Of a stretch of DNA of 64,000 bases, positions 2,010 through 64,000 are shown piece after piece. Source of the stretch: Moniliella sp. 'wahieum'. Its lineage: Eukaryota > Basidiomycota > Moniliellomycetes > Moniliellales > Moniliellaceae. Each line of letters begins with the position of its first letter. The first letter of the stretch is position 1. Position numbers and translations under genes: made by a program. The notes beneath the pieces are model-generated. The model was not told the DNA's origin. It worked only from the letters and a program-made list of their open reading frames with translations, and did no database searches. Where the stretch lies: assembly GCA_003971905.1 (NCBI GenBank), contig RSEE01000052.1, forward strand, positions 62,001 to 126,000, given 5' to 3'.

Positions 2010-2051
2010 AACGTTGAACGTTGAACGCTGATCGATGATCGATGATGCGAG
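2010..2051. repeat. heptamer palindrome array (AACGTTG then ATCGATG)
   Basis: Six contiguous 7-bp units keep one register: AACGTTG (two), AACGCTG, ATCGATG (two) and ATGCGAG. The unit changes from an AACGTT core to an ATCGAT core without losing the 7-bp phase. See the findings for the window-wide pattern. Confidence 0.85.
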
Positions 2052-2479
2052 TTTTGAAATGTATAGCTGCTACTCCTGCGGGCAGGCACAGGCAGGCAAC
2101 ACCGTCTGCACTAGTAAGTGTTGGAGAAACGACACAAAAGGTTTTGTCGGCAGCCTGGGGAGGCTGTGCCGCGTGTTCTGGGTTGCAAAGGAGAGGCATT
2201 TCACCCGCAAGACTGGGTTCATAACATCATGTCGTACAAGAACAGTGGTATGGACCTCCGAGACGGCGCTACAGAGGGGCTAGATCTGAGAAAGGAGGCG
2301 ACACCCGCCCCTTAGAAGATGCAACCGCTGGAGCAGCCGTCAGCCTCGAGGGGCCCATACACGCAATATGGGGGCTCGGGCACAACTCGAATATTGTGAA
2401 CACCCCAAGCAGAGAACATGTATTGTTGTCCACCATCCGCAATTCCTAGCTCCCTGCTTCTTTTGCCCTCTTCCTCGTC

Positions 2480-5400
2480 ATGGACGCATCAGGTCTCGCC
2501 ACCCCCAAATCACAGTCGACGGCGCCGTCCAAACGCCGCGAAGGAGCCCCTATCCCCCCGCTAGCGCTAGTGTACGCTTTGCGCGATCATTTACCACCCT
2601 CGTGCCGCTCCGGATCCATCTAAGGAGCAACAATTCAATGCTCTCCCAACCTTTTCCATCCAGAATGGCCTTGCTTCCTCGTAAGAATCAAGTGCCACTG
2701 TTGCGTCGTCCCTCGGATACGGCTTTTTTTGCCCAAAGTCCTCGGGGCACGGAGTATTCCCCAATCACAAGCGACCCATTGTTTCCTTGGTTGGGACCTT
2801 CTACACCAGCAAGTGCACAGTACGTTCTTCACTTTCAGCCCATGGGTGCGTTTTCGACTTTCACGAACACAGGAAAAACATCCAGAGGGACTGGCTGAGC
2901 TTAGAGAAGAAGCTCTATCCTTTGGTATTTCTCTCGGTCCCAACCCAACAGGACTCACGTCGACCTTTGAAGATTCCGACGAGGATGAAGAGGAGGTGCC
3001 TACGTTGACCAGTGAGAAGGATAGTCTCCGGAAGATCAAGAATGGCTTTCGGTCTCTCGGAAGGTCTGCCAAGCCTCCTTTTCCTCCAGTAACGCCCCAC
3101 ATTGCAAAAGACGACACATACTTTGGGGTGCAGGGACTCGGAGGGCACCATGGAATCGACGGCTTCGCTCCCAAGTAGGGCGAGAATCATTCCTCCTTCT
3201 ACACCAGGGCGTGGGTCTGACTTGGTCTGCCTTGTCCCTTTACGAGAAGGGAGATAACGCCGCCTCCACCTTTCCAAGAGTGGGGCATCAACGCAGCCTC
3301 CTCGGGCTTCCCTATGTTTTTCTCCATTCCGCACTGGAGGAAAGAGATCCTTGGTAGAACCCCGTCGAAGCCCAAGGCAAATGGGACTTGGTGGGTTAAG
3401 TGCCCACGACGGTACCCCACCACTCGTGCCGGGGTCATAAGCCCCGACTTGCCCCCAGTCCTACGCTAGCCACGCAACGCGCTCAAAAGAGGGTGGAGTC
3501 CAGGCCGAAGACTTATTCGACCGAATGGCTTCTACTAAACTCTCCTCTAAGGCTCGGGGAAATCGCGAAGCTTCGGTCCCCCTGCTTCATGAGGGTGCCA
3601 GACCAGAAGGAATCTTCAATCCAGGATACGTCATTGAAGGTATCTCTTCCTGACCGACCTAGTACGGTGATGGACATCGCTAGCCCTGGAGTGAAGTATT
3701 TCATCTCACCTGTCACGTCGGTTTCTCAGCCCGTTCAGCTTCGACGCAGATAGGACAGCTCAATGTCCTCCATCCACCGTGGTCGACAGAATCGAACGCC
3801 CGCCGGGACGTCTCCCAAACAAGAGCAAGTCAGTTGCTTGCTTCTCTTTGGCAGAGATCGAGTCACAAGCCAAGCAAGGGGGGCAACAATCGACACACAA
3901 TCCGGGAAGCTCATACCACTCTTCCATCACCAGGTACATGCCCCATGCCAGCCCCACTGGAGCTGGACGAACCACCCACTTCATCGGAATGGGCTCAAGA
4001 ATCTCCTACGGTCCTTTGTATGGACTCGGCAGTTTTGCCGAGTGCGCCCCCCCAGCCTGGTGAGGAGGGGGGACTTGTGCCTGAGGTGGAAGAAGAGAAC
4101 CTGATCACGTCCGAGTCGGAGGAAGACCTACAACCTGAACCGCTTCCTGAATCAAGCTTGAAGAACCATCAAATTTGATCCGTGGTATGACGGGACGTCG
4201 AGCAAAAAACCAACAAATCCCGGTTAGTGTATCTTCATTATCGAGTCTGTGCTCCCCACTTGGCACAAATGGAAGCCAGGACAAGGATCAGCGTCATCTT
4301 TCTCTCTCTTTGTTGGTACCCCTCTCTTCCTTCCCCGCACCACAAAATTCGAGGAAAGAAAGGCCAGCGATCAAGGCAAGTTAGGGATTCATTCATCATC
4401 TCTCTATGTTGATGAGCCTGTTAACACTCATTACTGGCTTTACACCCTTCTATTTCGAGGGATTCGCTTGGGGATGAGAAAGAGGAGAAAGCACCGCCCT
4501 GGATTTGGGAGATGGTCGCATACGGAAAGGAAGGTTCTCAGAAGGTGAGGCTTTCAATCGAAAGCAGTACGTTCTTCCCTTCGCTTGACACGCTATGTGG
4601 TCCCCCTACGCTCCCAAACAGGGCCAGTTCAGTGCATTCCTCCGTACCCTTATGAAGCAGCGGAATGAAACACCGAAACTGCTCCTTCTACCCGGCCGGT
4701 ATCGCCTACAAGCGGTGAAAATGAGAAACTATGGCCTCTTGCTTCGTCACCCAAAGAGTCCCATACCAAAGGCACGCATTTTTCTGGTACCATGGGAAAC
4801 ACGTCTGTTGGCATGGGGAGCACTTCTGTTGGATTGACGATCAACACAGCTGCCGCCACGGAATGGGCCCTGTCGCCTGCACCCAAATCGTCTTCCCACT
4901 CCAATTGGCGCAGCAGCACAGGAACGTCACCTTATCCCACCTGCATTAGTCCCAATAATTTCGGGATCCACGATCGTGCACGACGTGCCAGCAGCAGTTT
5001 TGCCGAGGGGGTCAGTTCGGCAAACATCAGCCACTCTGTCTGAATCTCTTTGGGAGAAGACCTGTTTGGCCTGAATTCGTTCGAGCTTGCACCCCTGAGC
5101 GTCTCTTCGGCTACGAGTGGTGGATTCTTAGCAGTTCCCTCTCCCTTCCCTCCCGCTACATCTTTACAGCAACGGTGCGAGGGACCTTCTCCAAAGAAGG
5201 TAGTTATCTCGACATGCTGGATGAAGACGAGGACGAACCCGCCCTGTCTTCTCAATTTGTCCCGCACTCTCAGATCCGAATTGTCATGCTGAAGAGGAGG
5301 CGGCCGTCGAAGATGACTGCTGTCTCCACATTCGACTTCATCGCCCCGCCCACCTATACCCCGCCCTTCTTTCTTTGCTTGCAACCGACACGATTCTCGA

Positions 5401-10691: not shown

Positions 10692-10876
10692 GTATGCGGG
10701 AGAACATATAAGCCAAAGATGTGGTTGCCCCTGGCTGGGCGAGCGGAAGGGGGCTGGGTTGGGATTAGATGTGGATAGCCGGAGTGTGGGCGGCGCAGCC
10801 GTGCTGAGCTGAGGCGCTGCGGCGGCCAGGAACAGCGAGAGCGAGGGCAGGTGGCTGGATTGAAACATTGGCGCTG

Positions 10877-10890
10877 ATCGATGATCGATG
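10877..10890. repeat. ATCGATG x2 heptamers
   Basis: Two tandem ATCGATG units lie in the 5' flank of the next gene, part of the window-wide heptamer family. Confidence 0.7.
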
Positions 10891-17289: not shown

Positions 17290-17726
17290 GCCAAGGGGAG
17301 GCACGATGGAAATAGACAGCGGCTACAGGCAAAAGTGCTTGCAAACAGACGGCTGAAGGCACGACGGTTGGAGGGAAGGTCATTAGGTAATACACCGGGG
17401 TTAAGCGGCTGGACGCTAGGCTAACGTTTGATCAGTTAAAGTGGCTCCGACTTGTTTGCCGTGGGATATTGGCGGGACAGACATAAAAACCGAACCCCTT
17501 GCCATGCACACCTCGACTGGCTAGTCCACATCTGCCCCACCATCCGCTCGCGTCCTCATTGTATCCGCTGCAGTTGGTTCAGGTGGGAGGCGGCGGAGGT
17601 AGGTACGGGAAACTTGTCGAGCCGCCCAGCGTCTCCCTGTCACTGACTCCATCTCTCGAGCATACCATTATGGCAGCTCCCAACACGCAATTTCTTGTCT
17701 GACTACTATTCCAGTTCTCTCTGTCA

Positions 17727-18458
17727 TTATCCTCTACAGATGCACAACCAAAATGGAAGCTCGGAAGACAAGTCATATTGAACGCGCGGATGGAGACCCC
17801 GAAAAAGACCAAAAGGAGAAAAAGGAAGTAGTGCCAAACGCTTAAGCAGTAGGGCCCAAGTGCTTAGCGAGTCGCCCCCATTGGCGTTCCAATTGCGAGC
17901 AGGGGGCGGCAACACACCAAGGTTGCTGTTGCGCGTGTGAATGGAAAGCTGCTCGAGAGACATCTCGAGCTGCTGGAGCTTGTGTTGTAAGGTGGGCATG
18001 GTAGCCGATCCCACTGGGATGGGATCGGCGCGCGGGAAACCACGAGGCAGCTTGCGGTTGTGCCGGACCAGCGCATTGTTCAAGCGGGCCACCACAGCAC
18101 CCTGGCGGGCCTCCACGTCTGGGCGGCGGGCCAGAGCAGCAAAGAGGGGTTTGGCATCCGTTTCGTACGCCATCTGTCGCTCCTGGTTCCTTTGCGCCTC
18201 AATACGCTCTTGCTCTTTTTTCCGCTCCATCATATCCTTGATCGTAGCGCGACGCTCGTTCAACGTGCGGGAACGAATATAATTCTTCTTCTTCTCCATA
18301 TAAAGCGCATGCAGAATCGCCTGCCGGTGGTCCTTCGAGTCGAACTTGCCCCACGGAAGAGCAGCCGCACGCTCCCGCGGCTCCTGACCTGGCACCATCG
18401 TCGGCTCGCTGTCGTACGACACGTGGCGATGCAGGCCTCCGGCCTGGTAGTTGGCCAT
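17727..18458 (-). CDS. unrecognised basic coiled-coil-like protein, copy A
   Basis: I do not recognise this family. From the ATG at 18458 the product (243 residues) opens with a polar region (MANYQAGGLHRHVSYDSEPT), then a highly charged Arg/Lys/Glu helix-forming stretch (NERRATIKDMMERKKEQERI and EAQRNQERQMAYE), a segment RRPDVEARQGAVVARLNNAL, and a Leu-heptad-like LQHKLQQLEMSLEQLSIHTR. No transmembrane segment or catalytic motif is seen. A leader intron is likely just upstream (CAG acceptor at about 18474, GTACGT donor near 18550), and an A/T-rich TATA-like GATAAATAG lies at 18692-18700. The 28751-29365 copy ends 39 residues earlier, because this copy lacks four bases near the end and reads into a different tail. 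Close conservation of the body suggests that both are functional. Confidence 0.6.
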   Translation of the reverse strand: MANYQAGGLHRHVSYDSEPTMVPGQEPRERAAALPWGKFDSKDHRQAILHALYMEKKKNYIRSRTLNERRATIKDMMERKKEQERIEAQRNQERQMAYETDAKPLFAALARRPDVEARQGAVVARLNNALVRHNRKLPRGFPRADPIPVGSATMPTLQHKLQQLEMSLEQLSIHTRNSNLGVLPPPARNWNANGGDSLSTWALLLKRLALLPFSPFGLFRGLHPRVQYDLSSELPFWLCICRG

Positions 18459-18691
18459 AATGTATTCGTAAGAGCTGTTATGACAACTGTTAGCAGCAGC
18501 CCAGATGGAGATGCTGGTGATCAACCCCAGGGACCACACAGGAGCAGAGAACGTACGTGGGGAGAGGAGGGCTTGGGCACGTATGCAGCAGCAAGCTGGA
18601 GGGTAGCAAGTATCCAGGCAATGCAATCGGCTTGGAGGAGAAGGGAGGTGGGGGTAGAAAAAAAGGAAGGAGGGAGGTGCTCCCGGCGCGC

Positions 18692-18700
18692 TATTTATCC
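18692..18700 (-). promoter_or_regulatory. TATA-like element of copy A gene
   Basis: GATAAATAG on the minus strand lies about 235 bp upstream of the ATG and upstream of the inferred leader intron. The same element is present in the other arm at 28511-28519. Confidence 0.4.
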
Positions 18701-19197
18701 TTTTCGGGCGCATGCCGGCTGTTGGGTTGGACTGGGCACAGAATGAGACCGCGCTGGGAATTGTGAGACGGGACGCGTCCAGAGCTGGCACAGCACTGCG
18801 TCGCTGTGCTCTGGGGCCGGTCGTTGGAACTACCCGAGGCTGTTGCCCTGCGGGGGTCCGGCGGATGGTGAGCGCCGGGACCAGAGGCAGTTGTGCTCTC
18901 GGTTGCGCTGTTGTATAGGTGTGAGTATACGCTGGTTTTGTGAGACTGGGCGTAGCAACGGTGGCCAGCCAGATGGGGAGGGTGGCGATGGCTGGGGAGT
19001 CAGGCTCAGTACGCAGTGCAGCAAATATCGGTGGAGTGTCCCCGTGAGGCGGTGGCAGCTGCGCGCTGTTGTGGCCGACACGAAACGGGACGACCTAGGA
19101 AAGCCAGCAGTAATGACTAGCAGCTGGGGCCCCGCACTCACGCTTTTTTTATGTTGGCAGGCGGGGGGGCAGTGTACCATGCACCCGCACACCATGC

Positions 19198-19800: not shown

Positions 19801-19854
19801 GGGCCTCTATTATCCTATCCTGCGTGTGCGTTCTATATGTATGCTGTGTTTCTT

Positions 19855-26133: not shown

Positions 26134-26492
26134 GAAGAGCGGGGGGACGCTGGGCTCTCGATCTTCTGGACGCTGATGATGGCTTGCAGATGCCCACAGC
26201 CGTGTTGCCTTTTGCATCCATGTACATTACTACTACCATGCTACCTACTTTGCCTACGTTTGCCTTGCCCCGCATATGTACTAGCGCCCCCTCTGGGATC
26301 TGAATTCGGATAGTACTTGGTTTTCCTTCAGGAGGCAGCACTCAAGTACCTCACCAGGATTCTTCACTGGTGGAGTCTGATCGTGACCGACTGTGTGCGA
26401 GCACGGACCACGTGCTGCTAGGGATTAATGGTTTAATCGGGGTAATTAGCTCATGGCCATCTTAATCGATGATCGATAATCGATGACGAGGA
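26134..26492. other. intergenic with heptamer array
   Basis: No gene is supported. The last 28 bp hold ATCGATG, ATCGATA, ATCGATG (26465-26485) followed by ACGAGGA, the 7-bp target duplicated by the adjoining retroelement. Confidence 0.6.
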
Positions 26493-36617: not shown

Positions 36618-38448
36618 GGTGGGAGATTAGAGGTGTGAGTGAGGCGGGGACGGTGGTGGACGGGGGGGTGGGGGGGGGGGTGGGGGCGAAGAGACACCCT
36701 GAGGACGGGTGGGCGTTTTATTTATGCGCGTCGGCACTGGCTGAGCCTGAGCCACTGCTGGCCCCCATCCGGGCCGACCGGGTGGCTGGCGTGGACGGGG
36801 CCGAACCCTACTGCGTGCGCGGGGATAACGGCGCTGGGCCTGACGCGGCAAGGGCGGCGTGGGAGGCAGCGTGTGTGCCGCCAGAGGCCCGTGCACACCC
36901 ACACCCGCAGCGCAGGCGCAGCACCGCGGGACTGTCCGCACCTGCGCGCCCACCGCACACGCCCCACGCCTCCCAGCGCCTCCCAGCGCCCGCCGGCACC
37001 GCGCGACGATGATGTGTGGCCGCTGATCAATCGGTCGTGGCTGCCATCCTTCCGCCCCAGCAAACGGCTCCACCCGTTGGCCCTCGGTTTAAGGCCGCAG
37101 CACCCCAGCCCTTTGCGGCTCCGCCCTGCCTGGCCCGCCCGCCTGCGCCTCGCCTCCCTCCCCCCTCAAGCTCCACACTACAAATCATCACCTGCTCCTC
37201 CTAACCCCCTCCAACCCTTCCTAACCCTTACACACCCTGTCACAACCACCACCGTCCATCTTCGTGCCCCGGCCATCCGCATTCGTCTCCTGCGCTCGTT
37301 CCGCCGCCCCAAACCGGGCACGCACAACCTCGTCGGGCCCGTCCGGAATGGCATGGCGGGGCAACCCGGAATGCGGCGGCCCGGGCGGCCCGGGCCCAGC
37401 GGCCTGAGCTCCGCCCGCACTGGGCCGCTCTTTGCTTTTCACATGTCACCCCGCACCAATCTATGGCTGATGCATTGCTGACTACGCGGACGCTCGGGTC
37501 CAGTCTTGGCCTCCCCCGGAGCCCATCTTCCTCTGCCCCCCGCGACCCACAAAGCCTTGCCGATCCACTGCATCCCCGCGTCCGCCCGCCCCGTCGTGTC
37601 CGGCCCTGCGCGCTACCCGGGCGCGGCTGCACTCCAGCCCGGACCCCCGGCGCTCCCGGGACGCGACTGTCCGAGGCCTGGTGCTTTCAACAAAAAGTGG
37701 CACGTCACCGTCACATTATATGTTGCCCACATGACTATCTGCATGGCCCGCCTGGGTTTAACGATGCCACTCCCCGCGTCATTCCATCTTACTGCGTTGG
37801 TCACGATTGTGCCTTCTCGCTACAGGTCCTGCATCTGCCCACCAGTTCAAGCCACAGGGGTTTACTTGTTGCGATGCGATAGGCTACATGGGCGTGAGCA
37901 CATTTGGCTTTTGGAATAGGGAGAGCACGAGTGCACCTCAAACTGAGGCCTCCGGGCCTCAGAGCCTTAGGTGCTCAGACCTCTTGTGGCTCGTGCAGTG
38001 CGGAAAGAATATATGCAGGGCGTGGTTCCGAGAAGAGAGGCACAGGAGAAAAGCCATGAGCGCAAGATCTGGCAAGGGACTGACCGCTGGCATTACGACG
38101 CGTGTTGAGCGGCACGTGATTAATGATCAATGAAGTTGAAATGAACTGGAATTGAAACGGAAGGCGGGAGAACCGATAACGCGATGACGCTACCGGTCGT
38201 TCATTAATCCTTGTTCGACTTGAACGTTCAACGTTGAAGTTCAACGTTCAACGTTCAACGTTCACATGTCACATGCCACACGTCACGTGGGTTTCACTGA
38301 TGACATCATGCATGATCATCCCCACTCCGAGTCACGTATGCAGCCTTTACTTGGTCCAGCCAACTCGAGGCCCAGTCGCTCACGCGAATAAACGAGCAGC
38401 TGTCGCCGCCTGTTTGTACCCCTCGGTATCACTCACCCCCCCTCGCCT
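36618..38448. other. long GC-rich intergenic region
   Basis: These 1.8 kb lie between the divergent MDH and phosphatase-family genes. Long open frames (36639-37481 and others) are compositional, occur in all frames on both strands, and show no family motif. An AACGTTC array lies at 38223-38290. A small C-rich leader-like stretch (37190-37250) could belong to an unrecognised transcript. Confidence 0.45.
38223..38291. repeat. heptamer array switching from AACGTTC to ACATGTC to ACACGTC
   Basis: After AACGTTC, AACGTTG and a 6-bp AAGTTC, there are three AACGTTC units (38243-38263). ACATGTC (38264-38270), ACATGCC, ACACGTC and ACGTGGG follow, all contiguous and in one 7-bp phase. This is the longest array with a change of core in the window. 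Confidence 0.9.
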
Positions 38449-43902: not shown

Positions 43903-46099
43903 GACCGGTTATGCCTTGGGCCTTATGGGGTAACTGGATGCTTGGCTCTTGGACGTGCGCTGCCACCTTCGCATGAGCCGCTGCCTCATGCGGCCTGCGG
44001 GTGCTCGGGTGCGGATGGCCGATGATCTATCGATGATCATGATGCATGATGCAATGGCCTGCGATGCCAGGCGCACTCGGTCACTCTGTGGGTCGGTGAT
44101 CACATATCACCATAACCTTGTCACCTTTCAGATCTCGGATCTGAATCTCACACCTCCACAGGTCACAAGTCATAGCCACATCACATGCATCATCCGAGGT
44201 ACTGAGGTTCTGAGTACTCTAACTCCGTGCTGACTATACAACTGACTGTCCATTATTAGGTCAACCACGCGCCGCCCTTGCGTTTCTTGACTGGTCCGAC
44301 CAGCCTGACCAAACTAGATCCTGACTGCCAGACTTTTGGCGTATATGTATGACCAATTTCTCTCGTTACGCCATACGCGCTTTATTCTGCGGTATACGCG
44401 CTACGCGCTGCGTTTGTGCTCCGAGATAGCACAGACAGGCTGTATGTATCATTATGACTGTGGCCAGAGTGACTATATATCCCCCCCTTAAAACTTCGGT
44501 CGTGATTGTTGGTGTACGGCAGGACATACCGACGTAACCGGTGGTTAACGTTCAACGTTCTGTGGATGTGCATCTGTATTTGATCGTGATCTTGCTGTAG
44601 TTGTGTGCTTCCCGTACGGCGTATGCTTCTATGCCTATGCCAATGAAGACAGATGCGTCTGGAATAGTGCGAAGGCGTAACACAGAAGAAAAGAGGCAAA
44701 AGCGTGTGTGCATTTTTGCTATTTCGCGAGACGAGAGAGTGGGCACTTCCGTTCCCGGATCTATCCCTATTCTTTCCAAAACCACACTCACATCATGTGA
44801 CAATCGAGAACCCCGGTCCCTTCTCCCCCTGAGTGTGGCAATTGTGTGGGTACCCGGTAAAACAGCGGTATTCAGCACTGGTGGGTAACACACATACATA
44901 TTTGACAGAGCTGTTGTTACTTTATCGGTTCTCCGTACTTTCATACCAAAAGGTGTAAGCCGCGCGCCATAGACTCTCTTGGCCCGACTCAGGAGCAGGA
45001 ACGGATACATGCACACATTCCCACTGTGGCATCGCACAGGTTATACAATGTATACCGTTGGTGCACAGCTGTCATTATGACGTGAGATGCACGACGCATG
45101 AGATGCATCCGTGTATCTGGCCTGTGGGTAGATCCCGAGAGAGTATAATATACACTCTGTCTCCATGAGAAGCCCAGCGCAAGCTCGTTAGCGCGGTGTG
45201 CATGAGCACAACGAGATAGATACGAAAAGTTCTTCTGATTCGGCGCGTGTCTTCGGTGGGTGCGGTCGGTACGCGCCAATAACATGCAAAAGGTTGAATA
45301 AACCCCACGGCCTAGGGCAGCAAGACGGACCGAGCGAGGTGGAATATCACACGCAACCGTCACGCGTCGCCTGTCATACCTCAGGCCTCAAACCTCAATC
45401 AATCACTAGGTCACTAGTCAAGTTTCAAGCTAGTCGCCTGTCACATGTCACATGTCCCATGTCACAGTGATTGTTGATCAAAGACAATGTCTCGCTGCCT
45501 GCGACCGTCACGCATGTGGTGCATCCTGCGTACCACCACACGACGAACCAGCGAAGGGCAGCGATCGCAAGCCGAATTTGAATTGTACTTGAAGAGCTTG
45601 AAGCCGGTATATACTACAGTGACCAGGAGTGCTATAGCGATTAGTGACAGTGACTAGCTTGACTAGCTGATTCGGAGACCCAACAACTCGGTTCCGATAA
45701 TCGGCGCTGGGCAGTGGCGCGGCAGTGGCGTGTGGCGGTCAGATGGCTGGGGAACAAACGGACGTGAGAAATATTGGCTCGTTGCACACCAATGGAAATA
45801 TTGGGATGCCGTGAGGGCTTCCCATCTGTACCTTCGGTATGTTCCGTTTGTGGGGGCTATGCACAAGCATGCACAGGCCATCAGGCTAGTCAGGCTCCTG
45901 ACAGTCCGGCCTCAGGAACGTTTTGGACCAGGCCCCGAGCGTCGTAACATCATCGCAGCCGTGTCATCATGTTATGCACGTGACACTGTGACAAGAAACA
46001 TACAACAGGGACCAATGCTCTCACATGTGACACGTCCATTCGGGCGTGTAGCAGGGCGTATCCTGCTGTAGCAAGCGAACCACACAGTACAGCTCTGGG

Positions 46100-46119: not shown

Positions 46120-46174
46120 ACTGGCGCCACCACATGTGCCTCTCGCCTGTCAATCGAGCTTTCAACTTAATTTC

Positions 46175-46195
46175 AACGTTCAACGTTCAACGTTT
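46175..46195. repeat. AACGTTC x3 heptamers
   Basis: AACGTTC, AACGTTC and AACGTTT are contiguous, in the far upstream region of the eS26 gene. Confidence 0.85.
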
Positions 46196-48784: not shown

Positions 48785-50465
48785 TTCCATTATGCCCAAA
48801 TCCCGTCCGCACGAATCCAACCTCCCACTTCCTGATGAACTAATGGGCAGCCCAGTTGAGTACATACATGTAATGTCCCGCATGCATGTTTTAACACCCG
48901 CAACCGCCCTTCCCCCAAGATCCAGTCCCTTCGACCACCGATCATGATGACGTGTTGGTCATGGCCCTCGACCGTATTGATGGCAGCTTGGCATACATGA
49001 GTCTCCCCCCTTCCGCCTCACTAAGCTTTCTGTACAACCCGCGTTACTGATTAATGGTTGCCGAGCCGAAAGCACTCACTGTTCAGCTTGCTTTTAGGCC
49101 TCGCAAAATCAATTGCGTTCTTGGCGACCAACGCACCTCTCAGATATCAAATCTCACATCCCACGCCCGCGTTCCTCCCGCTTTGGTTTCCGCTCCTTCC
49201 GCATATCCAGGGTTGCCGGCCAGTTTTGGCTGGTTCTGTGTTCCATCTTGTCCTCCCTGAATCCTCTTCTCCTGTGGAGGGACGCCTCGTGGCGAACTAA
49301 GACCAGAAGAACCCAAGTTTATTGGGAGGGGAACCCATGGAGAAGTAGAGTATACATGGAATGGCGATGGTGGTGAACGTTGAACATTAAACCTTGAACA
49401 CTTTGAGGCCGATGTCTAAGCTCTAAGCCGCATGGTCTCGAGCCCCAGGACACACCTGGAAGAGGCAGGGGTTAGAACAAGGGGTTGAATACCCCACACG
49501 TAGGCTTCGGAGGTCAATGAGGGATGAGAAGGAAATGTGCTGAGGTTCCCCTGTACGGTCCTCAAGTTGATCGATGGCGCTCGCAGGTTGCGAAACCCCT
49601 GCTTGCTCCACCTCCCTTTCCTGTCTCCTGTCTCCTTCCCTTCAGATCCTTCAACGGTTGCTTGAAGACTTGTAGCCTAGCGCTTTTTGCCTTCATGCCT
49701 TTTTGTCTGTCGAGCATCAACAGGCCAAGCAGAACCGGATAGCATGCCGAGGACTACTGGAACCATTTCTCAGGCCCTCACATGCTCACAGCGCTCAGCA
49801 GGCCCCTCAGACCGTGTCCTGTCACATGTCAGTCCTCAAGGCCTCAGGGCCTCAGGCTTAGATAGGTAGGATGTAAGGCAGGATTCTGGTCGCTCTTAGA
49901 GAGCTTGAAGCTTGAGGTGCACCTTGGCAATTATCGTTTACAGTGGATCCACCGAGACCTGTCGAACCAGGCGAGTGTCCGATAGCTTTTCATACGCGGC
50001 GTTGTCTGTGATGGACGCAGGGTGTGGGTTGCACAGCAAGGAGGCGCTGGTGCTGTCGACGAACATTCGAGTAGTTCGGTGTAACGTGGCGAGCAAGGCG
50101 AGCGAGTCGCCCCAAGTGCTATTCCTTATCTATGCACAACGTCCTCAGCATATCATAGACACCATGCATCATGCATCATGTGCATCATGCAACATCCAAG
50201 AAGCCCACAAACTGGCTTGCCTCCTTATTGTGGACGCTCCAACGCCTTCCTCGGCCTCACCGGTCAGCGGGGGGAGGGTCAAGCTTCAAGCTTCAAGGGC
50301 TGGTCAAGGCCTATAACACAGTAGGGAGTGCCCCTGTGTATTGCAAATCGTTGGAGGCATGTGCGATTGAGACATATGACGATGAATCCGTTAGCGGTGG
50401 CGTCATGCATTGGCCAACTGAGTGGGTTCTTGCACAGATAGTAGTCTCCTATATGTGGCAGATTG
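48785..50465. other. intergenic, no supported gene
   Basis: Short frames only. Heptamer motifs occur at 49376-49400 (AACGTTG-like), 50164-50177 (ATGCATC twice) and 50281-50294 (AAGCTTC twice). Confidence 0.5.
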
Positions 50466-51101: not shown

Positions 51102-51950
51102 TGTCACGGGCGGGCGCCGCCAGGGGCCCGCCCTGGGGTTTTGGGAGTACAATCCCTTAGGCGACGGTAGGTCGACTCACGGTAGTTTCGGGCTTAGGCT
51201 GGTTGGTGTGTCCGAGCGGAGCTAGGGACGAGGAGAGGCCTTTGGTGGGCGGCTGCACGTGTGGCAAGGCTGCGTCTGCACCGGCTTGGGCCGTAGTAAC
51301 GTGTCTGAAGCCTCCGGGACTTAGGGACGGGAGGAGGCAGAGGGGGACAAACACTGCCTCCACTGTGATTGGGAATCGACGCGACCAAAGGAGGGCTCGC
51401 GCGACTGGACTGACGAATGGCTGGAGGACGAGGTCGGAAGAGAAGTCGGACGCTAACAAGAGCAAGCTGCCTGTACTGGATCAATTGGCTGGAAAACGGG
51501 CAGGGGTCGGACAGGATAGGCGGGAGGGTAGCCGAGGGGGTTGAGACGAGAGGATGACGAGAATGGAAGGTGGGGGAAAAGATCCCCATCAACCAGGGGT
51601 ACAGGCAGGATCAAAAGGGAAACGGATACAAGAGGGGGTGTAGAAAGGAAGACACGTCAAAAGCGGGGGTGGTCGCCGCAGGCGCGACCGAGAAAGGAAA
51701 AGGAAACGGGACGGGGCGACAGACGTCGCCACGGCACTGGAAGCTCGGTGGCCTTATTTAGGCCAGCCGACTTGGACTTGGGCGGGGGGCGACTATTGTC
51801 GCACGGAGCATGACCCTTCGGGCCACGGTACTTAATTTAGCCAACTCATCACACTTGGTTGGCCTGCGGTGCACGCTCTACTGGACATGTGCGGAGCAGG
51901 CGGGCCTTAGCTTGGGTCGGACCATCTCGTGTCCGCCGCAGCCCGTGACA
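51102..51950. mobile_element. solo LTR
   Basis: The 849-bp segment starts TGTCACGGGC and ends GCCCGTGACA, a perfect 10-bp terminal inverted repeat with the TG...CA ends of LTRs. A 5-bp direct duplication CCTCT flanks it exactly (51097-51101 and 51951-51955). No internal coding domain or second LTR is next to it, which fits recombination of an LTR retrotransposon down to one LTR. Just inside the left end is a GC hairpin, GGGCGGGC (51108) with GCCCGCCC (51126). A short DNA transposon with TIRs is the alternative. Confidence 0.75.
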
Positions 51951-54700: not shown

Positions 54701-57555
54701 TCCCCTTATAGCCGCCGCCTCTCTATCCGCCCTCTTCGTCTCTCAGCTCTTCAGCCAAGACCCAGTCAAGTCGCGTTGGTCCTCTTCTAGCCACGTCGAG
54801 GCAGGTCCCAAGCAAAAGTCCGCGCTCTGACAGTGTTTGTCCTCCGTGCCAATCCCCGTCCCTGAGCCCCGAAGGCTTCAGACACGTTACTATAATACTG
54901 CCCTAGTCGGTGCATACTTCCGCAGCCTTGTTGTCACGCCTGCAGCCACCCCTGCTATACGCTGAGCTACTCCTTTGCCCCTATATATATACAGCTCATC
55001 CGCTCGGGCGTACCAGCCTGCCCAAGCACGAAATTACCGTGAGTCGCCCCTTTAATTGGACTTCTAAGGGATCGTACCCCCTAAGGCCTAAGGCATAAGG
55101 CCTAATACAACCGGGTGCCAGGGCGGCCCCCCTGGCGCTTCCCGTCCCTGAAGAGGCCTGACAACTCTCCCTACGGCCTCTATGGCCTTGGCCCCGTCAC
55201 GTGTCACGTTTCACGCGTTCGGCCTCTCCGGCTCCGACCCTGAGCGCTGAGCACATGTATGTGCACCGCTAGTGTTGACAACTGTCAGCATGTCAGCCTC
55301 AGGTCCTCATCAAGGCTGCAGGGCCTGAGGCCTCAGGGCCACAGGGCGGTAGACACGTGATGGATGATGGATGATGCCTTTCCTGAGGTCTATGCCTGAC
55401 GCCAATCGATTTTCGATACGGATCGATGATCATCGATCACGGATCATTGATCGCTGAGTACACAGCGTCACGCGGCGGTGGATACTAAAAACGTATCCCT
55501 TGGTCTTCCGAAGTCACTAATGAGTACACTGAGTACTGAGTACTTGTTGGAGTGTGGTGGCACCCCTTGGTGTGATGGCTGGATCGGCCATGGCTGGCAA
55601 GCGGAACTGGCTATAGAGTTCCGCGACTCGCGCGCTCCGGATTGGTGACCGTCGCGCCCTCGTTCCCCTCCTTCATCTTCTCCTGTTGCATTGAAGGTTG
55701 GACTAGCGTCAGGAGCTTACAAGAAGCTATCTCTGACTGTTCCCACCCTGCATAGTGCAATCGTCCTTAGCTTGGTAGCGTAGCTACTTCTCTGTTAACG
55801 GACAACCGCGGTTCTGGGCTCTCATTGGTGTGATCGATTCATCGCGCTCACCCATTGATCGCCTAGTCTAGTGCTTCGCCCTAGCCCCCAATCTTTCAGT
55901 ACTGAGTTCAGTAGTCAGTTGCCACTTTTATCATAAAGCACTAAGTACTAAGCACTAAGCGCTAAGCCTTAACATGTAACAGGACCTAGAGACAAGACGC
56001 ACAGCCCCGTCGGATTCGCACAGCGCCGAACTCGCCCCGTATCCACATAGTATTATTGTTTTTTTGGATGGGACCTTTATTTGTTTTTTGTATCGGACCT
56101 CGAGTCCGCCGCGGGCGGGGAATTTGACGATCTTCAAGGGTCCCAATTAAATGAGGCCCAGGACAGGGCCCAACGCGACGCCCAAGTGGCCCACGGCTGC
56201 ACTGGACTTGTACTTACCCCAGTCTGGGGCCCTGGCATACTGCGGCCGGCGGACAATGGGATAATTTGTACTTAGTCACCCAAGGTACTGAGCTCTGAAA
56301 AATCGGTATTGCCGTCATCTAATATTTACGTGTGGTGGCAAGAGGGCTGAACCTCAGAGGGCGCGCTGAGGCGCTGAGAGCTCAGCTTGAGCTCTCAGCC
56401 TCAGCGCTCAGCCTGAGCCAGCTACAATAAACCAGTCCATTATTAGTCAAACATCATCGCCCCCCGCGCGAGCTCACGCTCAACCATATGGTTGAAGGGG
56501 AACGTCTATACCGCCCTTGTCAAGCACAAGCAACAGATAAATGTGATGGATGCAGCATTTTCTTCGTCCCTGCAGTGCGTGTTGCAAGGCTCAGCGCTCA
56601 CGACGCTATGAATGCAACAATAGTAGTCAATATGTAGTGGTGGGTGCTGGTCGTGCGCTTCACCAGCTTTTCACCCAACAGGCTTGAAGCTTGAGGGTCC
56701 TTGGAGAGTGAGGGGCCCGAGGCCCTGAGGCCAGCGTAAGCTCAATAAAGGGAAATGCAAACGGGGGGTGGGGGGATACCACATGGCATTCCCCTAGCTC
56801 GTGAGTTGGATCGTGTAGGGACCATTCTCTTAGTACCTAGGCGCGTGCTCGACAAGCACATCTGGAGCAGGATCAGATCGGGATCAGAAAGGCCGGGGCC
56901 GGGTCAGCTAGGCACGCGAACTGCGGCTAGCTCAGTGCGGAGTAGAGTATGTTGGCCCCAGATCCCAGACCGCCAAGTGAAGTGGAGGGGAGTTAAGTTT
57001 TAAGATGTCGATTGATACTAATCCCCCACAGTACAGCTCCGAGGAAAGTCTAAGGCGCGAAAGAAGGAAGGAGCGTGTCAATTGAGTGTGCGAGATATCC
57101 AAGTGTGAATGAGGGGAAAACGCGGGCCATAGTGTAGTAGCAAGTGAGGTAGAAGGGGGAGCAGGGAAATAGATAGGATCCAAAGCGACTAGACTGACAA
57201 CTGTGGGATGCCAAAGATCCAAACAGCCAAACGACGGATACAGTTTCCCATCTCATAGAATATGGCCAGAAAAGCGCGCTGTCCAGGTCGCTGGGCGGGC
57301 CGCGCCTCGGAACAAGAGGGACGAAGGCCGTGAGGGGGATGCGAAGCTGGCCTCGCCAAAGGAGACGTGAAGCGGTAGGACCAGTTCCGGCGTTGGCAGA
57401 GTGGGTGCCACAAGCGGGCTGCTGGCGGGGAGGCAGGGGCAAACGGGTGTAGCTGGTTGGGATCCGGGCCAGGAGAACGTGGCCGACAACGCCTGCTCCG
57501 ATGAGCTAGGGCCGATCGGGGGGGGTTCAGGAGCGCGGGGGAAGCGGCGAGAGCG
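54701..57555. other. intergenic, heptamer-rich
   Basis: 2.9 kb with no supported gene. Arrays include AGGCCTA/AGGCATA (55084-55104), GATGGAT repeats (55360-55378), ATCGAT/GATC clusters (55416-55450), AGTACT/ACTGAGT (55520-55545), the six-unit array at 55937-55978, and CTGAG/AGCGCT palindromic clusters (56364-56420). Confidence 0.5.
55937..55978. repeat. six-unit heptamer array with drifting core
   Basis: Contiguous 7-mers: AGCACTA, AGTACTA, AGCACTA, AGCGCTA, AGCCTTA, ACATGTA. Three of the six contain self-complementary hexamers (AGTACT, AGCGCT, ACATGT); the others differ from these by one or two bases. Confidence 0.9.
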
Positions 57556-58917
57556 CTACCGAAGCGGGGACGCACGTGTCCCCCTCTGGTGATGGCGATT
57601 CAGTGCATCGAGACGGGCAAACATTTTTCCGCAGAATTCGCACGTATGGGGACGAATATTGAGATGCTACAAAAGGGCATGTCGTTATCTGCGAAAAAAA
57701 GATAGGGAAGGGAGAGGAAGGCTACCAGTTTCTCATGCCGCCGCTTATCGTGAGCTCGAGCAAATGAGCGCTCACAGTATCGACAGGAGTATGGACGTTC
57801 GTCCGTGTGCGAACGAAGATGCCACGCAAAGTTGAAGCCCGGGTGAAGAAGCTCTCACAACCGGGGACGGGGCACTTAAAAGGCGCCGCCCCTTTCGGCG
57901 CGATACTACTGAGGCTGCCTTGGTCTTGGCCGTTGTGACTTGGAGATTGTGGATGGGCTTGTCAGACAAGCTCAGTTCCGCCAATCCGGCCTCCGACGCG
58001 GACAGGTGCGAGGACGAGGCTGGGTGTGGAGGCTCCATGGCGGATTGCGGGGGCGACAAGACGCTCGGTGTGTGACTCGCGGGGAGTCTGATTCACTTTC
58101 GGGTCGGGACTGCTCCGAGCCTGAGGTCGTGCTTACGGGGGGGACGGGGAGCTGGGGCGGGCAGTGAAGTGGTAAGGCCATGAAGGGAGATGCCTTGGAC
58201 TTAGCCCAGACGGTCGAATGCTGGATGGGCTGCGGCGGCGGGCCTTGGTTCCAAACGGTAGGATGAGAAGCGGCGGGAGCCGGTTGCATTCGAGGGGCGA
58301 GACAACACAGGGGAAACGGTGTTTCCTTCAGGGCCAAAGCGGACGAGAGCATCCATACTGCTGCGGTGGTGTTTGGCAATGTGGGAGGGAGGAGACGGCT
58401 GCGCGGAATGGGGGAGCGGCTGGGTGGTAAATACAGGCGGGCCCCCAGCCAGGACGAGTGGAGGCATGCAGGCACCCGAAGGGTCAAAGCTGAAGGTCAG
58501 GCGGTCGAGACCGAGAGAGGCGCAAGGCACAGAAGTCGCTGTGTGGCCGTTTTGGACCGCGAAACCCGGCTGGAGGGGCGAACGGGGGGAAATATCGGAT
58601 GGCGCAATAGCCACATCAGATGCCACAAGGGGTAGGGTAGTGACAGTCAGACCATCAGCGAAGGCGCTTGGGGCATTTGCGGGTGGGAACGGGGCGTTCT
58701 TGTCGAGGCCGAGAAACTGTTTGAATTGCACATAAGAGTCTTGACGGCGAGGGTCGAACGAAGCTAAGGCTTGAGGGCGCTCGAGCTCGACAGGGTCGAG
58801 CGCAGAGGGGGAGAGAGAGAGGAGGATGGGGAGGCATAGCAAGGCTTCCAGGCTGTGCTGCGGCCGCTTCTGTAGAGTCACATCCAGCGGTGGGAAGGGC
58901 TGGGAAAGGGTGGTCAT
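57556..58917 (-). CDS. C2H2 zinc-finger transcription factor, frame-broken
   Basis: DNA-binding regulator with a disordered N-terminus and C-terminal fingers. The chosen start is the ATG at 58917 (MTTLSQPFPPLDVTLQKRPQ). The middle is Ser/Pro-rich and ends ASSSHLSASEAGLAELSLSD. Fingers lie at about 57880-57580. Finger 1 reads CPVPGCESFFTRA then FAWHLRSH across one shift. Finger 2 is CRYCERSFARAHDKRRHEKL plus H, with the final His supplied after an intron (about 57671-57723). Finger 3 is CEFCGKMFARLDALNRHH. The C-terminus is GTRASPLR, stop at 57556-57558. The finger 1-2 linker TDERPYS matches the usual TGE(K/R)P linker. Such CX4C/CX2C pairs occur in fungal Msn2/Seb1-like and related factors; the exact group is not assigned. 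Confidence 0.72.
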
Positions 58918-61897
58918 AACGGTCCTGGAGCGTGGGATCGTAGGATGAGACCAGAGCGGGCACAGCGGTGGTAGCGGTAGCGGCGGCGGCGGCGGCGGGG
59001 CGGGCGGCGGTGCGGTGGGAGCTGCCGGCGCTGCTTGGCACACTGGAGGGCGGGTTGGGGAGCGGTGGCGCGGGGAGCATGGGAGGGGAGGGGAGGGGGG
59101 GGGAGGAGATGGAAGGAACTGGGAGGCGGGTGTGTGTTGGATTGAGTTAACGCGGGACGGGGTGTCGATGGGGCCGACTGGCAATGGCGATGGCAATGGC
59201 GATGGCGATGGCGATGGGGGCCCTCCCGTGCGGCCAGGGTTCGCGCTGGCGTGGGCACTGTGCCGCATCCATTCGACTCGCATCGGCCCTGGCGTGGCTC
59301 CCACGGGCCAGGGAGCACGGGGGCAGTTTAAACCCGCGCTGCTGCTGCTGCCCCCGCGCCACACCACACTGCGTCCGGTGTGCGCTCCCGTGCGCGGGTG
59401 CGGGACGAGTGGTGTGCTGCGCGCTGCTGCCGGCACGGGGCCTGCGCCCGCGCCGATGAGCACGAATACTCAGATCTCAGAACTCAGATCTCAGACGAAG
59501 TGCTTCGGGGGTAAGCGGCCGGCAAGCTTTCGGAACGGCGGTGCCTTGTCGTGCGAAGCGAGTGCCAGTGCTGGCAAGGGGCGCTTCGCCTTGAAAAGAC
59601 CCCCGACGGGCAGTCTGCCTGCGTCCGCTCCGGCTGTGTCGGCTGGTGGCTGCGGCGGGTTGAGCGTTACGCGTTACGAGCGTTGCATATTGAATGTACA
59701 TGGAACGTACGTTGAACGTGAAATTGTGACATGCACAGGTGACAAAAGGCACTTGCCCCAGAGGCTCAGGCTGAGCGCGGGTGCCCTGATCGATGATCGA
59801 TGATCGATGATCGATAACCGAAAAACCCTACGAGGCGTCCGCGCCAGTGTGGCTCGCGCTCAGCGCTGAGGCTCAGCGCCCAACCAGCGGCAGTCCATGG
59901 GATCATGAGATCGATTAAGGAACCTAGCTTCGAAAGTACTACAACGACGACAACTGAGTACACCGAGTATACGAGTCCACTGAGTACTTGGTGACTAGGT
60001 GACTACCGGTAGTGATGCATGATGGATGATCGATGGTCAATATTCAATCAGCGTCAGCCGTCAGCGCTGAGGCTTAGCCTGAGGGCCTGAGTAACACCAG
60101 TGTGGGCATCTTTCCTACACACACACACTTCAGCGATTAATTGATTATCGATGTAATTCTCTTACGCAAATTTGTGGTCCTCCGACGGTTGCATATATGG
60201 AAGCACAGATGATTCCGAGAATCAACATGTGTTGAAGATATCGGGCCATACCAGCCCCACCACCTCTCAGGATCAGACGGAATTAGTGCAACAGAGCCGC
60301 CATCAGACATGATGTCAAGGCGAAGTGGTGCCGGGGGAGCCGCGAATGGTCAAGCTTCAAAAAACTTGACGTCTGAAGGAAGGAACTGGGGATACAACCA
60401 AGAAGGGAGATGGGCTCACGGTGGGCAGGGGGGTGCGCAGCTTCCGAGTGAAACCTGCGGCTCGACTATAAAAGCGGGTGTCACCAATGAACTTAAGGGG
60501 CCGTGCTGGGGAATCCTATAGCGCTCCCCTCTCTCATCGTGCGATCCCATCAAAAGTATACTCTCTCACATATATACAGGCTCTGTCATCGGCTTCATCA
60601 CCTCGATCAACATCGTTCTGTTGGGGCCCGTGGTCCCGTACGTAGGCCAAAGTGCCTTATCACCATTTCTCCCTTATTATGACCTCCGAAGAGTCCGTGT
60701 GTATACTCCGGCGTGTTCGAACCCTTGTCTCTCTTCCATCACCAGGTGTGGCAGAAGGCCCTCAACCACCTTCGTATTATTGCTCTACATGATGGCATTT
60801 CCAGCGGTTCTCCACCCAAAATCTTGGGTTCCTCCGATATCTCGTGTTCAAAGTGTTTAACTTCAGACGTGAGTGGCTTTGGGAATGCACAACGTTGCTC
60901 CTAGGGCGTAGAAGACACAGCCCTGCTTTGTCTATAGAAGACTATTTTCTCCTTTTGGCCGCGGGACAACTGATGCACAGTAATGCATAATGCATAATGC
61001 CGTACTAAATCACTAGCCCTACCAGGCCCTACCCCCTTGTGGCTCTGAGATCTGAGACTTTGTGATGAGTGACCACATTCTAACGCATGTGACACCGTGG
61101 CGCTCTGCTGCTAATGCGGAAATCATGTAATCATTTCACAAAAATTGGGGGTAGAGATACCAGTGACATGTTACAACAGCGTTGTTGATTCGTCCCATGT
61201 GGGGAGAGCCCGTGAAACCCTGAGGAGATGATTGAAGCTCAGCTGAGCGCTGACCGGACCTTGAGAAGACACAAAAGGATTATACAAGAGGACTCGGCAC
61301 TTAGGATACTACTCACGGGTGACCGGTCACCATAAGGATGGACCGAGTGCTACTATGCTTGCTGGATTTTGGGGCCAGAGCAGAGCAGCGAGAAGTGGAA
61401 GGTGCGGGAAAGGGGAGCCGGAAAAAAACGAGACAAATACAACAAATTGGGCAAGAGACACAATAATCAGGGGTGCTTGTGGGACCAGCGCTCCGCCCGG
61501 GTTTCACCCACGTTGCGCCTCTTCGTCCGTGACAGGTTTGTAAGTCCTGCCTAGCCTCGTTCTTTACCGGCCATGCTGCTGCCTCAGCACCGCGGGATCC
61601 ACACTTGATAAGTTTTAGTTCTGGGACTCTATGTTTACCACATTCACTGGTCACCGGTTACACAGCAACGCATGCTCCTCTGTACCGTGCATAATAGGAA
61701 AGGCTTATAATTAGGATTTTAGTGATTCATGCGTTACTAGTGTAATTGCGATTAAGTGAGAACGTTGAGCGAATGCGGTGCACGCAACGGAGACAGTCGC
61801 GCTTCTTTTAACGGTTAAACGTTAAACGCTAAAGCGGTACATTTATACGTGGGGGAGGGCGGGGTCGAGAAAACACCATGACATGTGGCAGCCTTGT
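58918..61897. other. intergenic, heptamer-rich
   Basis: The first 500 bp are the GC-rich 5' flank of the zinc-finger gene, with CCG triplets (58975-59000) and a GGCGAT hexamer run (59183-59218). Beyond that no gene is supported. Arrays include ATCGATG x4 (59789-59816), CTCAGCGCTGAGG palindromes (59857-59875, 60065-60085) and GAGTACT motifs (59955-59990). Confidence 0.5.
59789..59816. repeat. ATCGATG x4 heptamer array
   Basis: Three perfect ATCGATG units and one ATCGATA are contiguous, giving a GATC every 7 bp. Confidence 0.92.
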
Positions 61898-63095
61898 GAA
61901 TCCATATCATTGACAGAGCTTAAGGCTGGTACAGGGGAACGCTACGTCTAAACCGAACCGTTCATCTTGGGGGGTTACTTGGAAGCGCCACTAAGGTCAA
62001 GGAACCAGGGGGATCGCCAGGATATCAGGACCCTCCGGTTCTCGCCATCCGGTCCCGTACCCTAGGAAGCGCGTGTGGACACGGATGAACGTGGTTGACA
62101 TCCGAGCGAGGAACCATTTCCACTGAGACTTGGTAGCCAACTCCTTCCAATGCGCAAACAACTTGCCCGCTGTCTTGGTGCCGTAGTATCCTCGCGTCGT
62201 CAAAACCAGGGGGAAAAACGGCTCTTGAGTGCGTCCCTGGTACTTGGCGTTCTTGTCGCATTCTGCTTGTTCAAGCAGCCGAAGCAGTTCCTTCTCCGGC
62301 GTTCCCAAGGCGACGCAGTGCTCTCGTGCACCAACCGCCGGTACGCGCTCTGCGCCTCTTGCGTTCCCGTGTCGCGCAGCGTGTGGTCCACCTCCATCCC
62401 TGATCCTCCCAGTGCTCCAGGCCCCATCACGCGGTAGTCGGTGCGCTGTGCCCTCGGTCCGCGCCTCGTCCCATCCTCGTCCTCCATCATAGGTTCGTTG
62501 CGGACGTGAGTGTCGGGGATGGAGCGTATGAGCTGGAGAATGGGCTCCCGTACTGCCTCATGCAACGCACTAAACTTGGCCTGGGTGCGGGTGCAAGACA
62601 TGATGTGCTCCAGCGAGGACATGACACCGCACTTGCACATGCTGCGCGTGGTGCGGCACAGCGTGCGGAGCTGGAGACCCACCTGGACCTGCTGGTCAGA
62701 GAGCAGGTACGGGACGGACGGAATGGCGGAGAGCCAGTTGTGGCTCAGCGGGTTGCTGTGCTCAAACACATGGCGACCATCGGCAGCGTCCAGCTTCTGG
62801 AGCAGCTCCTGTCGACTTTGCTCCCACATCTCGCGGCAGCGCTGGCGTTGCTTCGTAAATGCGTTGGCCGTTGCCGTTTGCGGTCCCGAACGGTCAACAT
62901 AAGTGGTAATAAGATAGTCGTTGACCTCGTTGGCCGCAGCACGGGCGTGGGGCGCGATATACGAGTAAAGCGGGCTGCCACATCCTCCCATCCGGAGAGG
63001 CAGGCTCATGAGCATGTCGAAGTGGTCGTCCTTGGCACTTGGGGATCCTCGTCGCCCCGGATCCGTCTGAACTCCGTACAGAGATCAATCTCCTC
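61898..63095 (-). mobile_element. 5'-truncated copy of the RLE-type non-LTR retrotransposon
   Basis: Reverse-oriented copy of the 3' third of the element at 29865-33308. It starts at the codons before CTGTACGGAGTTCAGACGG, covers LPLRMGGCGSPLYSYIAPHA, MWEQSRQELLQKLDAADGRH, the knuckle MCKCGVMSSLEHIMSC, QRTDYRVMGPGALGGSGMEV and the FFPLVLTTRGY end, and shares the 3' UTR down to CTCTGTCAATGATATG. The 5' truncation with intact 3' end is typical of target-primed reverse transcription. Amino-acid differences from the long copy are few, so both are fairly recent. Confidence 0.88.
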
Positions 63096-64000
63096 AGTGC
63101 GTCACCGCGAAGGGAGACGCAATCGGTCTTAGTAGTGACGGGTGACGCGCAATCACATACAATACGCGTCCATGTTCAACGACGTTTTCTCAACATTTTC
63201 TCAATCTCCTGAAGAAACCTGGGAACCTGCGTATTAGGCCTGGGTTCCTGAGTGCCTGAGTCTCAGGCCCGAGGGCGTCTTCTTCAGCCCTTTCAGCCTT
63301 ATAAGCTTCAGAGCGCTCAGCCTTGTCAAGCTTCAGGCTTATATTCATTAATCATTCTTCAAGCTCTTCAATAAGCTTCAAAAAGCTTCACTAGTCACTA
63401 GTCACTAGCCACTAGCCACTAGCTTCACTAGCGTCATCGATCAACGTAATAGCAGGTTACCGGTTATGCTTGACTAATATATGCACCACGCGGTGCAGTC
63501 TGTGCACATCCAGCACATCCTCCTTCTCTGGAGTCCTCATGCACTCATGTATATACTCAGTACTCAGTCGAGTGCTATTATAAGTACTAATAATAATCGA
63601 TCAATCAAAACGGTTCTCTATTCTCACTTAATTTTTGTTTTACCAATCTCTTCGTGTGCCTTAAAACGTTAAGTCATGATGCATGAAGAAAAGACCGCGC
63701 GCTACCCCTGCTTCCCCTCGTCAAGGAGAGTCCGGCTCTTCCGGTTACTTCGTCACCAAAATACTCTTGACAAGTCAGTGACTAGTGACTAATGAACGGT
63801 GACCAGAGGACGCTAGTAAAGCTTAGCTGGAAGCTCGAAGCTCGAAGAGCTTGAGGCCAGAGGCTCAGGCCTGAGGCTAGCTTGAACCTATAATAGCTTG
63901 AAGTTTGAAGTCGCTGGTACTATATTGTTCGCTTCAGCTGTCACTCATGTCACATGCCATGTCACGCGTCATCACACGTAACAAGTACTCAGAATTATTG
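63096..64000. other. intergenic, heptamer-rich window end
   Basis: No gene is supported. Contains AAGCTTC/AAGCTC motifs (63300-63390), the ACTAG array (63388-63431), AGTACTC motifs (63553-63565) and AGCTCGA repeats (63832-63850). Confidence 0.5.
63388..63431. repeat. TCACTAG/CCACTAG heptamer array
   Basis: Units TCACTAG (three) and CCACTAG (two) are contiguous, then CTTCACTAG. ACTAGT palindromes arise at the unit joints. Confidence 0.9.

Follow-up and report, generated by a model that had tools for sequence, protein, structure and literature searches.

Excision of Ac/Ds and Tc1 elements leaves footprints made of short duplications with a few extra, often palindromic, bases. At yeast double-strand breaks, foldback (snap-back) templated insertions have been described that consist of very short inverted copies, the majority of those reported being under 14 bp (PMC11724301), and intrastrand template-switch mutations are presented as events in which the nascent strand loops back and copies itself, making perfect stems, with stable loops enriched (PMC8794818). 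Here we analyse a 64,000-nucleotide stretch of the genome of the basidiomycete Moniliella sp. 'wahieum' (hereafter the window), part of contig C52 in an assembly of 69.5 Mb and 223 contigs, and describe a family of 7-bp repeats in which palindromic tetramers are separated by the triplet TNA. Throughout, lower-case xx and zz denote the reverse complements of XX and ZZ, and N is any base, usually constant within an array.

The repeats resemble yeast foldback insertions in that the inserted bases (xx) are an inverted copy of adjacent bases (XX). The yeast system, as its report presents it, involves an imperfect 10-bp inverted microhomology, variable lengths and one induced break (PMC11724301), whereas here, extrapolating from our samples, a single T-A closure, two copied bases and a 7-bp step are iterated at very many places. 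With intrastrand template switching they would share the self-copying of a looped-back strand that we propose below; in the published account of those mutations 4-base loops dominate and stems vary (PMC8794818), whereas here the loop TNA and the stem of two are fixed and the hairpin is added beside an intact copy of the site. Like the excision footprints of DNA transposons, among them mPing, a PIF/Harbinger element (PMC2836001), they combine a short duplication with a few extra, often palindromic, bases, but these follow the host flank by a fixed rule and not the ends of an element. As in 7-bp microsatellites, copies run head to tail and their number changes in whole units; unlike in microsatellites, the unit differs from site to site, is mostly computed from its flanks and is most commonly single. 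Our searches of an open-access library turned up no account of the TNA insertion rule.

Grammar of the TNA unit

A first-pass annotation of the window had proposed that many arrays share not one sequence but a symmetry and a 7-bp spacing, with units of the form A-(palindromic tetramer)-T plus one base, and that this could be checked against shuffled sequence and against neighbouring spacings. We counted in the window, in a 264-kb sample (the window plus 20 preset 10-kb pieces picked regardless of content) and in a 314-kb sample with five further pieces (25 preset pieces; 19 contigs sampled in all). Controls were dinucleotide shuffles (20 for the window, 5 for 264 kb, ten for 314 kb), reversed words and the 15 other X-N-Y triplet loops. 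The window holds 47 tandem heptamers vs. 4.9 in shuffles and 30 dyad-symmetric ones vs. 0.55. Identical hexamer palindromes spaced 7 bp apart number 25 vs. 0.45 shuffled, whereas spacings of 6, 8 and 9 bp give 0, 1 and 2, and 24 of the 25 belong to the A-(palindromic tetramer)-T class (0.0 in shuffles). Likewise, 80 equal palindromes lie at distance 7 in the 264 kb vs. 1.8 in shuffles, 76 of them in this class. Because the excess over shuffled sequence is large and specific to a spacing of 7, neither outcome that would speak against the proposal (counts at the shuffled level, or equal enrichment at 6, 8 and 9 bp) was seen, and its central claim is borne out.

The proposed unit holds as a motif, but it is the shadow of a tighter rule: the true constant is the triplet TNA between palindromic tetramers, only T and A are common to all arrays, and the tetramer itself is mostly predicted by the flanks. 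The two N flanking a tetramer are equal in 277 cases and unequal in 61 at TNA in the 264 kb, while unequal N outnumbers equal N in each of the 15 other triplets. The spacer base of the 80 palindrome pairs is C in 30, G in 29, A in 13 and T in 8. Pairs of the same tetramer are in excess across TCA/TGA (93 vs. 2.4) and TAA/TTA (27 vs. 0.8), and the excess across ATG/CAT (28 vs. 4.1) and ATC/GAT (21 vs. 3.5) is taken as frame-shifted readings of those same arrays. Moreover, triples with two different tetramers carry the same N at all three positions in 14 of 17 cases. All 16 palindromic tetramers are present and 12 are common, AT-only ones being rare (13 of 218 single units). Genome-wide, the exact 21-mer (AACGTTC)x3 occurs at 161 places and its reversed word at 3.

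With equal N as the entry condition, the 314 kb yielded 265 arrays, 218 with a single unit and 47 with several. In 136 of the singles the register continues by half a tetramer on one side only (72 right, 64 left), so that XXTNA-xx-XXTNA (or the reverse complement) is seen most often, in which a 5-base direct repeat encloses the reverse complement of its own first two bases; 40 singles match both flanks and 42 match neither, and the exact classes comprise 35 of type (2,0), 33 of type (0,2) and 4 of type (2,2). The change that makes a unit is probably XXTNA to XXTNA-xx-XXTNA, which adds 7 bp and may take place on either strand.

On both strands of the 314 kb this 12-mer occurs 362 times, against a mean of 2.7 (range 0 to 5) in the shuffles. 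First units number 313 at 245 separate places, or 0.78 per kb, and arise at 13.6 per 1000 sites for TNA vs. 0.11-0.73 for the 15 other loops. XX-TNA-xx 7-mers are followed by XXTNA in 362 of 2530 cases, compared with 207 of 36611 for the other triplet loops. In a scan of stems of 1-4 and loops of 1-6, only a stem of 2 with the loop T-N-A clearly stands out among the T..A-ended sizes, and in a scan of direct repeats of 3-9 with gaps of 1-5 only repeat 5 with gap 2 lies clearly above chance and reversed controls on both sides (69 and 73 vs. 27 by chance, 31 and 30 reversed). Hairpins in general were considered and rejected, as non-palindromic 4-bp stems with 3-base loops show no enrichment (1044 vs. 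1086).

Longer arrays extend the same grammar. From a presumed starting site XX-TNA-ZZ they would take the form XX-TNA-(xxXX-TNA)m-(ZZzz-TNA)n-ZZ, which fits 41 of the 47 multi-unit arrays in full; of the 16 with two tetramers, 13 fit both flanks and the other 3 fit one. A flank explains 176 of the 218 singles, vs. 152 of 480 in the 15 control triplets together, which contain 12 multi-unit arrays in all. In the whole genome GATSATCGATSA occurs at 5597 places, its reversed control at 144 and the A-N-T version of the word at 8; the reversed control of that A-N-T word, itself a TNA-type word, occurs at 10860. Arrays of the window that illustrate the grammar, or its decay, are the following (window coordinates).

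2008..2024, TGA-ACGT-TGA-ACGT-TGA, two units
2029..2045, TGA-TCGA-TGA-TCGA-TGA, two units
10875..10890, TGA-TCGA-TGA followed by TCGATG, an example in the first-pass annotation
26465..26484, imperfect ATCGAT array in which N varies, the spacer being G or A
46173..46194, (TCA-ACGT) array lying some 0.5 kb upstream of the coding match to eS26
50279..50297, TCA-AGCT-TCA-AGCT-TCA-AG
55935..55981, TAA array with changing tetramers GCAC/GTAC/GCAC/GCGC/GCCT/CATG
60981..60999, TAA-TGCA-TAA-TGCA-TAA-TG
63388..63431, TCA-CTAG array passing into decayed CACTAGC units (ACTAGC)

All 11 places originally quoted as examples are period-7 arrays. Those at 55937-55978 (hexamers in order AGCACT/AGTACT/AGCGCT/AGCCTT/ACATGT) and 63388-63431 proved palindromic only in part, and at 26465-26485 the period holds but the spacer base changes along the array. 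The array with changing tetramers at 55935..55981 is probably an aged one.

Ordinary tandem-repeat slippage, with palindromic units favoured since looped-out DNA folds, would account for whole-unit length changes such as the two repeats that separate the copies of the locus at 59787 (below), and it may add to array growth, 40 of the 218 singles looking like full 7-bp duplications. As the origin of the arrays, slippage is nevertheless improbable. It does not predict the specificity for TNA, the retention of N while the tetramer changes (14 of 17) or mixed arrays that follow both flanks (13 of 16), and the 136 singles that match one flank have a lag-7 match of about five bases. Whole-unit duplication as a first event suits at most 40 of the 218, and the flank rule speaks against slippage for most first units. 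The joint flank table likewise rules out, for most singles, that a dyad 7-mer was duplicated in tandem, as in a 7-bp target duplication, the same 40 staying compatible. The suggestion that three units, spanning about two helical turns, place successive palindromes on one face is unsupported too, most singles (the 136 with a one-flank match) being not even full tandem duplications.

Outside this genome, 27 viral and at least 120 bacterial stretches, masked around the search word, showed no TNA excess (0.53 per 1000 in the viral and 0.22 in the bacterial set, in the same range as other loops). In scans of viral contigs an A-N-T control word matched 7 stretches, and two TNA words matched 3 and 2; without masking, each of these last five contains between 4 and 15 TNA-type 12-mers. 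Arrays of (CAAGCTT)n do occur in many bacteria, Pseudomonas foremost among the matches listed, and in 27 viral contigs, where they sometimes run directly into TTGACA promoter-like boxes. A non-palindromic 7-bp microsatellite, (GCACCAA)n, extends over 110 bp at L009:9014-9123 and is unlike the TNA arrays.

Variation between two copies of the locus

Contig C63 carries a second copy of window positions 36000-45900 and 54900-63999, 88 to 94% identical over long pieces; judged by this identity, the two copies are best described as haplotypes or homeologs. Seven stretches of C63, 6.4 kb in all, were compared, and the window sites of most interest are these.

38239..38273, mixed array GT-TCA-(ACGT-TCA)x3-(CATG-TCA)x1-CA, pattern LLLR; much shorter in C63
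40013..40034, (TGA-AGCT) array; the surrounding stretch is 8 bp shorter in C63
43870..43902, TAA arrays with CCGG/CTAG/CTGG/CCGG; C63 has one extra unit
44119..44123, empty site TGTCA; C63 has TGTCA-CA-TGTCA, 2 mismatches in 29 bases
55241..55252, filled site TGAGC-GC-TGAGC; C63 has empty TGAGC, 0 mismatches in 29 bases
55425..55429, empty site GATGA, its surroundings rich in palindromes; C63 has GATGA-TC-GATGA, 0 mismatches in 29 bases
59787..59815, (TGA-TCGA) array; C63 has two repeats fewer
63939..63943, empty site TGTCA; C63 has TGTCA-CA-TGTCA, 0 mismatches in 29 bases

The mixed array at 38239 follows the grammar on both sides, its left units being set by the left flank GT and its right unit by the right flank CA. 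Four places (55241, 55425, 63939 and 44119) are clean presence/absence differences of a single unit, and arrays differ in length by one unit near 41121, 43889 and 55080 and by two repeats at 59787. Among the 89 alignment gaps between the copies, 7 bp is the commonest size above 2 bp, with 10 gaps, while sizes of 6 and 8 bp account for 2 and 3. In all, 108 rows were compared, in both directions and with overlapping rows kept separate: 33 are present in both copies, 17 match an empty site and 58 are uncallable. One of the 17, at 40263, is due to an unrelated 7-bp difference at 40254. The insertion process seems to have acted again and again, apparently until recently.

Foldback chimeras are a feature of some library methods, so an assembly or amplification artefact could in principle write short self-complementary units of this kind. 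We regard such an origin as scarcely credible: 33 of the 108 rows are present in both copies, which differ by about 7% elsewhere, units are absent from the coding-like segments tested, and events occur in 22 of the 25 preset pieces as well as in the window, the samples having been drawn from 19 contigs.

Two larger differences between the copies were also seen. A 187-bp repeat at window 40527-40713 has CACGT on both sides, whereas C63 has a single CACGT and no repeat; 31 more matches to it are listed. A 354-bp insertion at 55545-55898, with TG..CA ends between two GTACT, is not in C63.

Genes and other repeats of the window

A Pfam scan of nine reading frames of the window matched eS26, malate dehydrogenase, a Ras-family GTPase, a pyridine nucleotide-disulphide oxidoreductase and a histidine phosphatase, the remaining four frames giving no match. 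The best solved relatives of eS26 are fungal entries, which together with a Zn-cluster-like motif agrees with a fungal genome. None of the window's 93 12-mers lies in the seven coding-like segments tested (7038 bp; 10.2 expected), and their density is highest in the final third of the window. Such a distribution could be read as that of binding-site arrays for dimeric proteins kept by selection, one of the roles first suggested for the repeats. We consider this very improbable, as selection against frame shifts should clear 7-bp insertions from genes whether or not the units have a function, each of the 16 palindromic tetramers is found and is mostly dictated by the flank, no recognition sequence is shared beyond T and A, and most units are single (218 of the 265 arrays). 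Neither this role nor that of the suggested methylation-related sites is needed, because copying XX into its reverse complement yields palindromes automatically, the tetramer being set by the flanking dinucleotide.

Several other repeats occupy the window. An 849-bp element at 51102-51950 has the ends TGTCACGGGC..GCCCGTGACA and is flanked here by the 5-bp duplication CCTCT; 40 long matches are listed, including itself, out of 620 first-look candidates, and its copies carry 5-bp duplications such as CCTCT, AGTAC and GTAAC. We dropped its classification as a miniature inverted-repeat transposable element (MITE); to judge from its ends and duplications, it looks like a solo long terminal repeat and is unrelated to the TNA arrays. 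A repeat of about 168 bp at 26690-26857 has TGTCA..TGACA-like ends, with about 40 matches listed and 551 first-look candidates. A coding-like repeat is present at 32124-33309 and 61897-63082 in two copies that are 95% identical, with 37 more long genome matches listed; the neighbouring frames, which we take to be reverse-transcriptase-like, gave no Pfam match among the frames scanned. Finally, a 2.7-kb inverted pair lies at 17363-20082 and 27126-29834 (93.7% identical), and the long open frame of its first copy, the one scanned, has no Pfam match.

Origin of the insertions

The product is established, as are its limits to TNA, a 3-base loop and two copied bases, the flank rule and the variation between the two copies of the locus. 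We think it probable that the arrays have built up through one kind of site-specific, self-templated mutational event at TNA. A strand with its 3' end at TNA would leave its template and fold back, T and A closing the turn over N. The folded end would then be extended by two bases (xx) on the XX template, and synthesis would restart on the original template opposite the first base of XX, so that the 7-base hairpin XX-TNA-xx would stay in the strand and be fixed as an insertion. Because each new unit would recreate the TNA site, arrays would grow from both flanks, with the dinucleotide on each side supplying the units of that side (xxXX on the left, ZZzz on the right) and the original N common to all. 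An "unknown copying process" had been among the suggestions of the first-pass annotation, and it is this suggestion that the flank rule (176 of 218 singles, 41 of 47 multi-unit arrays) supports.

From the product we infer a nick or break at TNA, a foldback, resumed synthesis and an enzyme. Random slippage is a poor match for the strict sizes (2 + 3 + 2) and the requirement for T and A, which suggest instead a specialised polymerase or an enzyme dedicated to nicking or moving strands. More tentatively, and at somewhat less than even chances, the lineage may possess an enzyme, be it a polymerase or a nickase of transposase origin, that can act wherever a TNA is accessible and place next to it a 7-base hairpin unit copied from the strand itself.

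The main rival is the excision footprint of a transposon. TNA duplications are made by IS5-type elements, and hairpin opening leaves self-complementary P bases; an excision that combined a 3-bp TNA or 5-bp XXTNA duplication with a flank hairpin opened two bases in, or snapped back and filled, would give the right product size, the duplication plus two P bases. The TAA/TTA duplications, 3 bp long, that mPing is reported to make resemble TNA (PMC2836001), and a few inverted-repeat pairs with equal TNA flanks lie outside arrays, for instance at window 60370-60869 and L009:6031-6202, and are possible small elements. Yet in both strand classes it is the XX end, the one away from TNA, that the two extra bases match, a pattern not expected of a symmetric two-ended excision. 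In the window and L001-L028 we counted 18 TNA pairs with equal N and 9-bp inverted repeats, vs. 2 to 12 for other triplets, and 12 of the 18 lie plainly in arrays. Some tens of thousands of footprints would be required, extrapolating from 0.78 places per kb. In yeast, 109 of 110 mPing excisions are reported to have been precise (PMC2836001). Profile searches of the genome for DDE_Tnp_4, DDE_3 and DDE_Tnp_1, the families searched, found no match, and none was found for Dimer_Tnp_hAT, a search that matched no control genome either and so carries no weight; within these limited searches neither an element nor a PIF/Harbinger or other transposase came to light. Overall, an excision footprint seems to us unlikely, if clearly worth keeping in view.

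Several observations weigh against a self-templated insertion at TNA. The 40 two-sided singles resemble full 7-bp duplications, and about 11 are expected by chance with independent flanks by our own estimate; they may come from symmetric starting sites or from arrays shortened at an end. The flank rule misses 6 of the 47 multi-unit arrays and 42 of the 218 singles, the latter number being close, we estimate, to the chance expectation from the unequal-N class. The triplet known for very stable DNA minihairpins is G-N-A and not T-N-A. Near other events, insertion does not rise steadily with the stem strength of XX, the rate per 1000 XXTNA sites being 8.1 when XX has no G/C, 46.8 when it has one and 26.4 when it has two, so more than the stability of the hairpin drives the insertions; the effect of N is small (24.7 to 41.3 per 1000 sites). 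Neighbouring events show no common strand bias (74 same, 101 different), and a replication-strand bias, looked for in these counts, was not seen. Three preset pieces (L021, L024 and L033) contain no event.

The comparison of copies adds to these points. The differences may be gains or losses of a unit, 58 of the 108 rows are uncallable, and of 560 random 7-bp deletions tried, 10 agreed with the other copy to within 2 mismatches. Differences of 7 bp that do not fit the rule occur at 40254 (CTTCA-TG-CTTCA) and 60052 (CGTCA-GC-CGTCA), and the copies differ by 8 bp at 40002 and 59990 and by 9 bp at 40354 and 63675, with complex differences at places such as 38223-38270 and 40450-40500. The product is well established; its agent is putative.

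We conclude that the repeats are a real mutational signature with a near-exact grammar, still varying between two copies of the locus. Most of them can be computed from two flanking bases and TNA, unlike the products of slippage, mobile elements or chance, and this points to one enzymatic event. The rule provides a clean signature for searching other genomes, and foldback copying, usually seen as scattered mutation clusters, can be put to a direct test at a very large number of sites (about 0.78 places per kb across the 314 kb). If the proposed enzyme is real, DNA in this fungus would be lengthened in a new way, by a fixed, self-templated and sequence-specific step that needs no external template or mobile element, and much of its non-coding genome would have been seeded with computed repeats.

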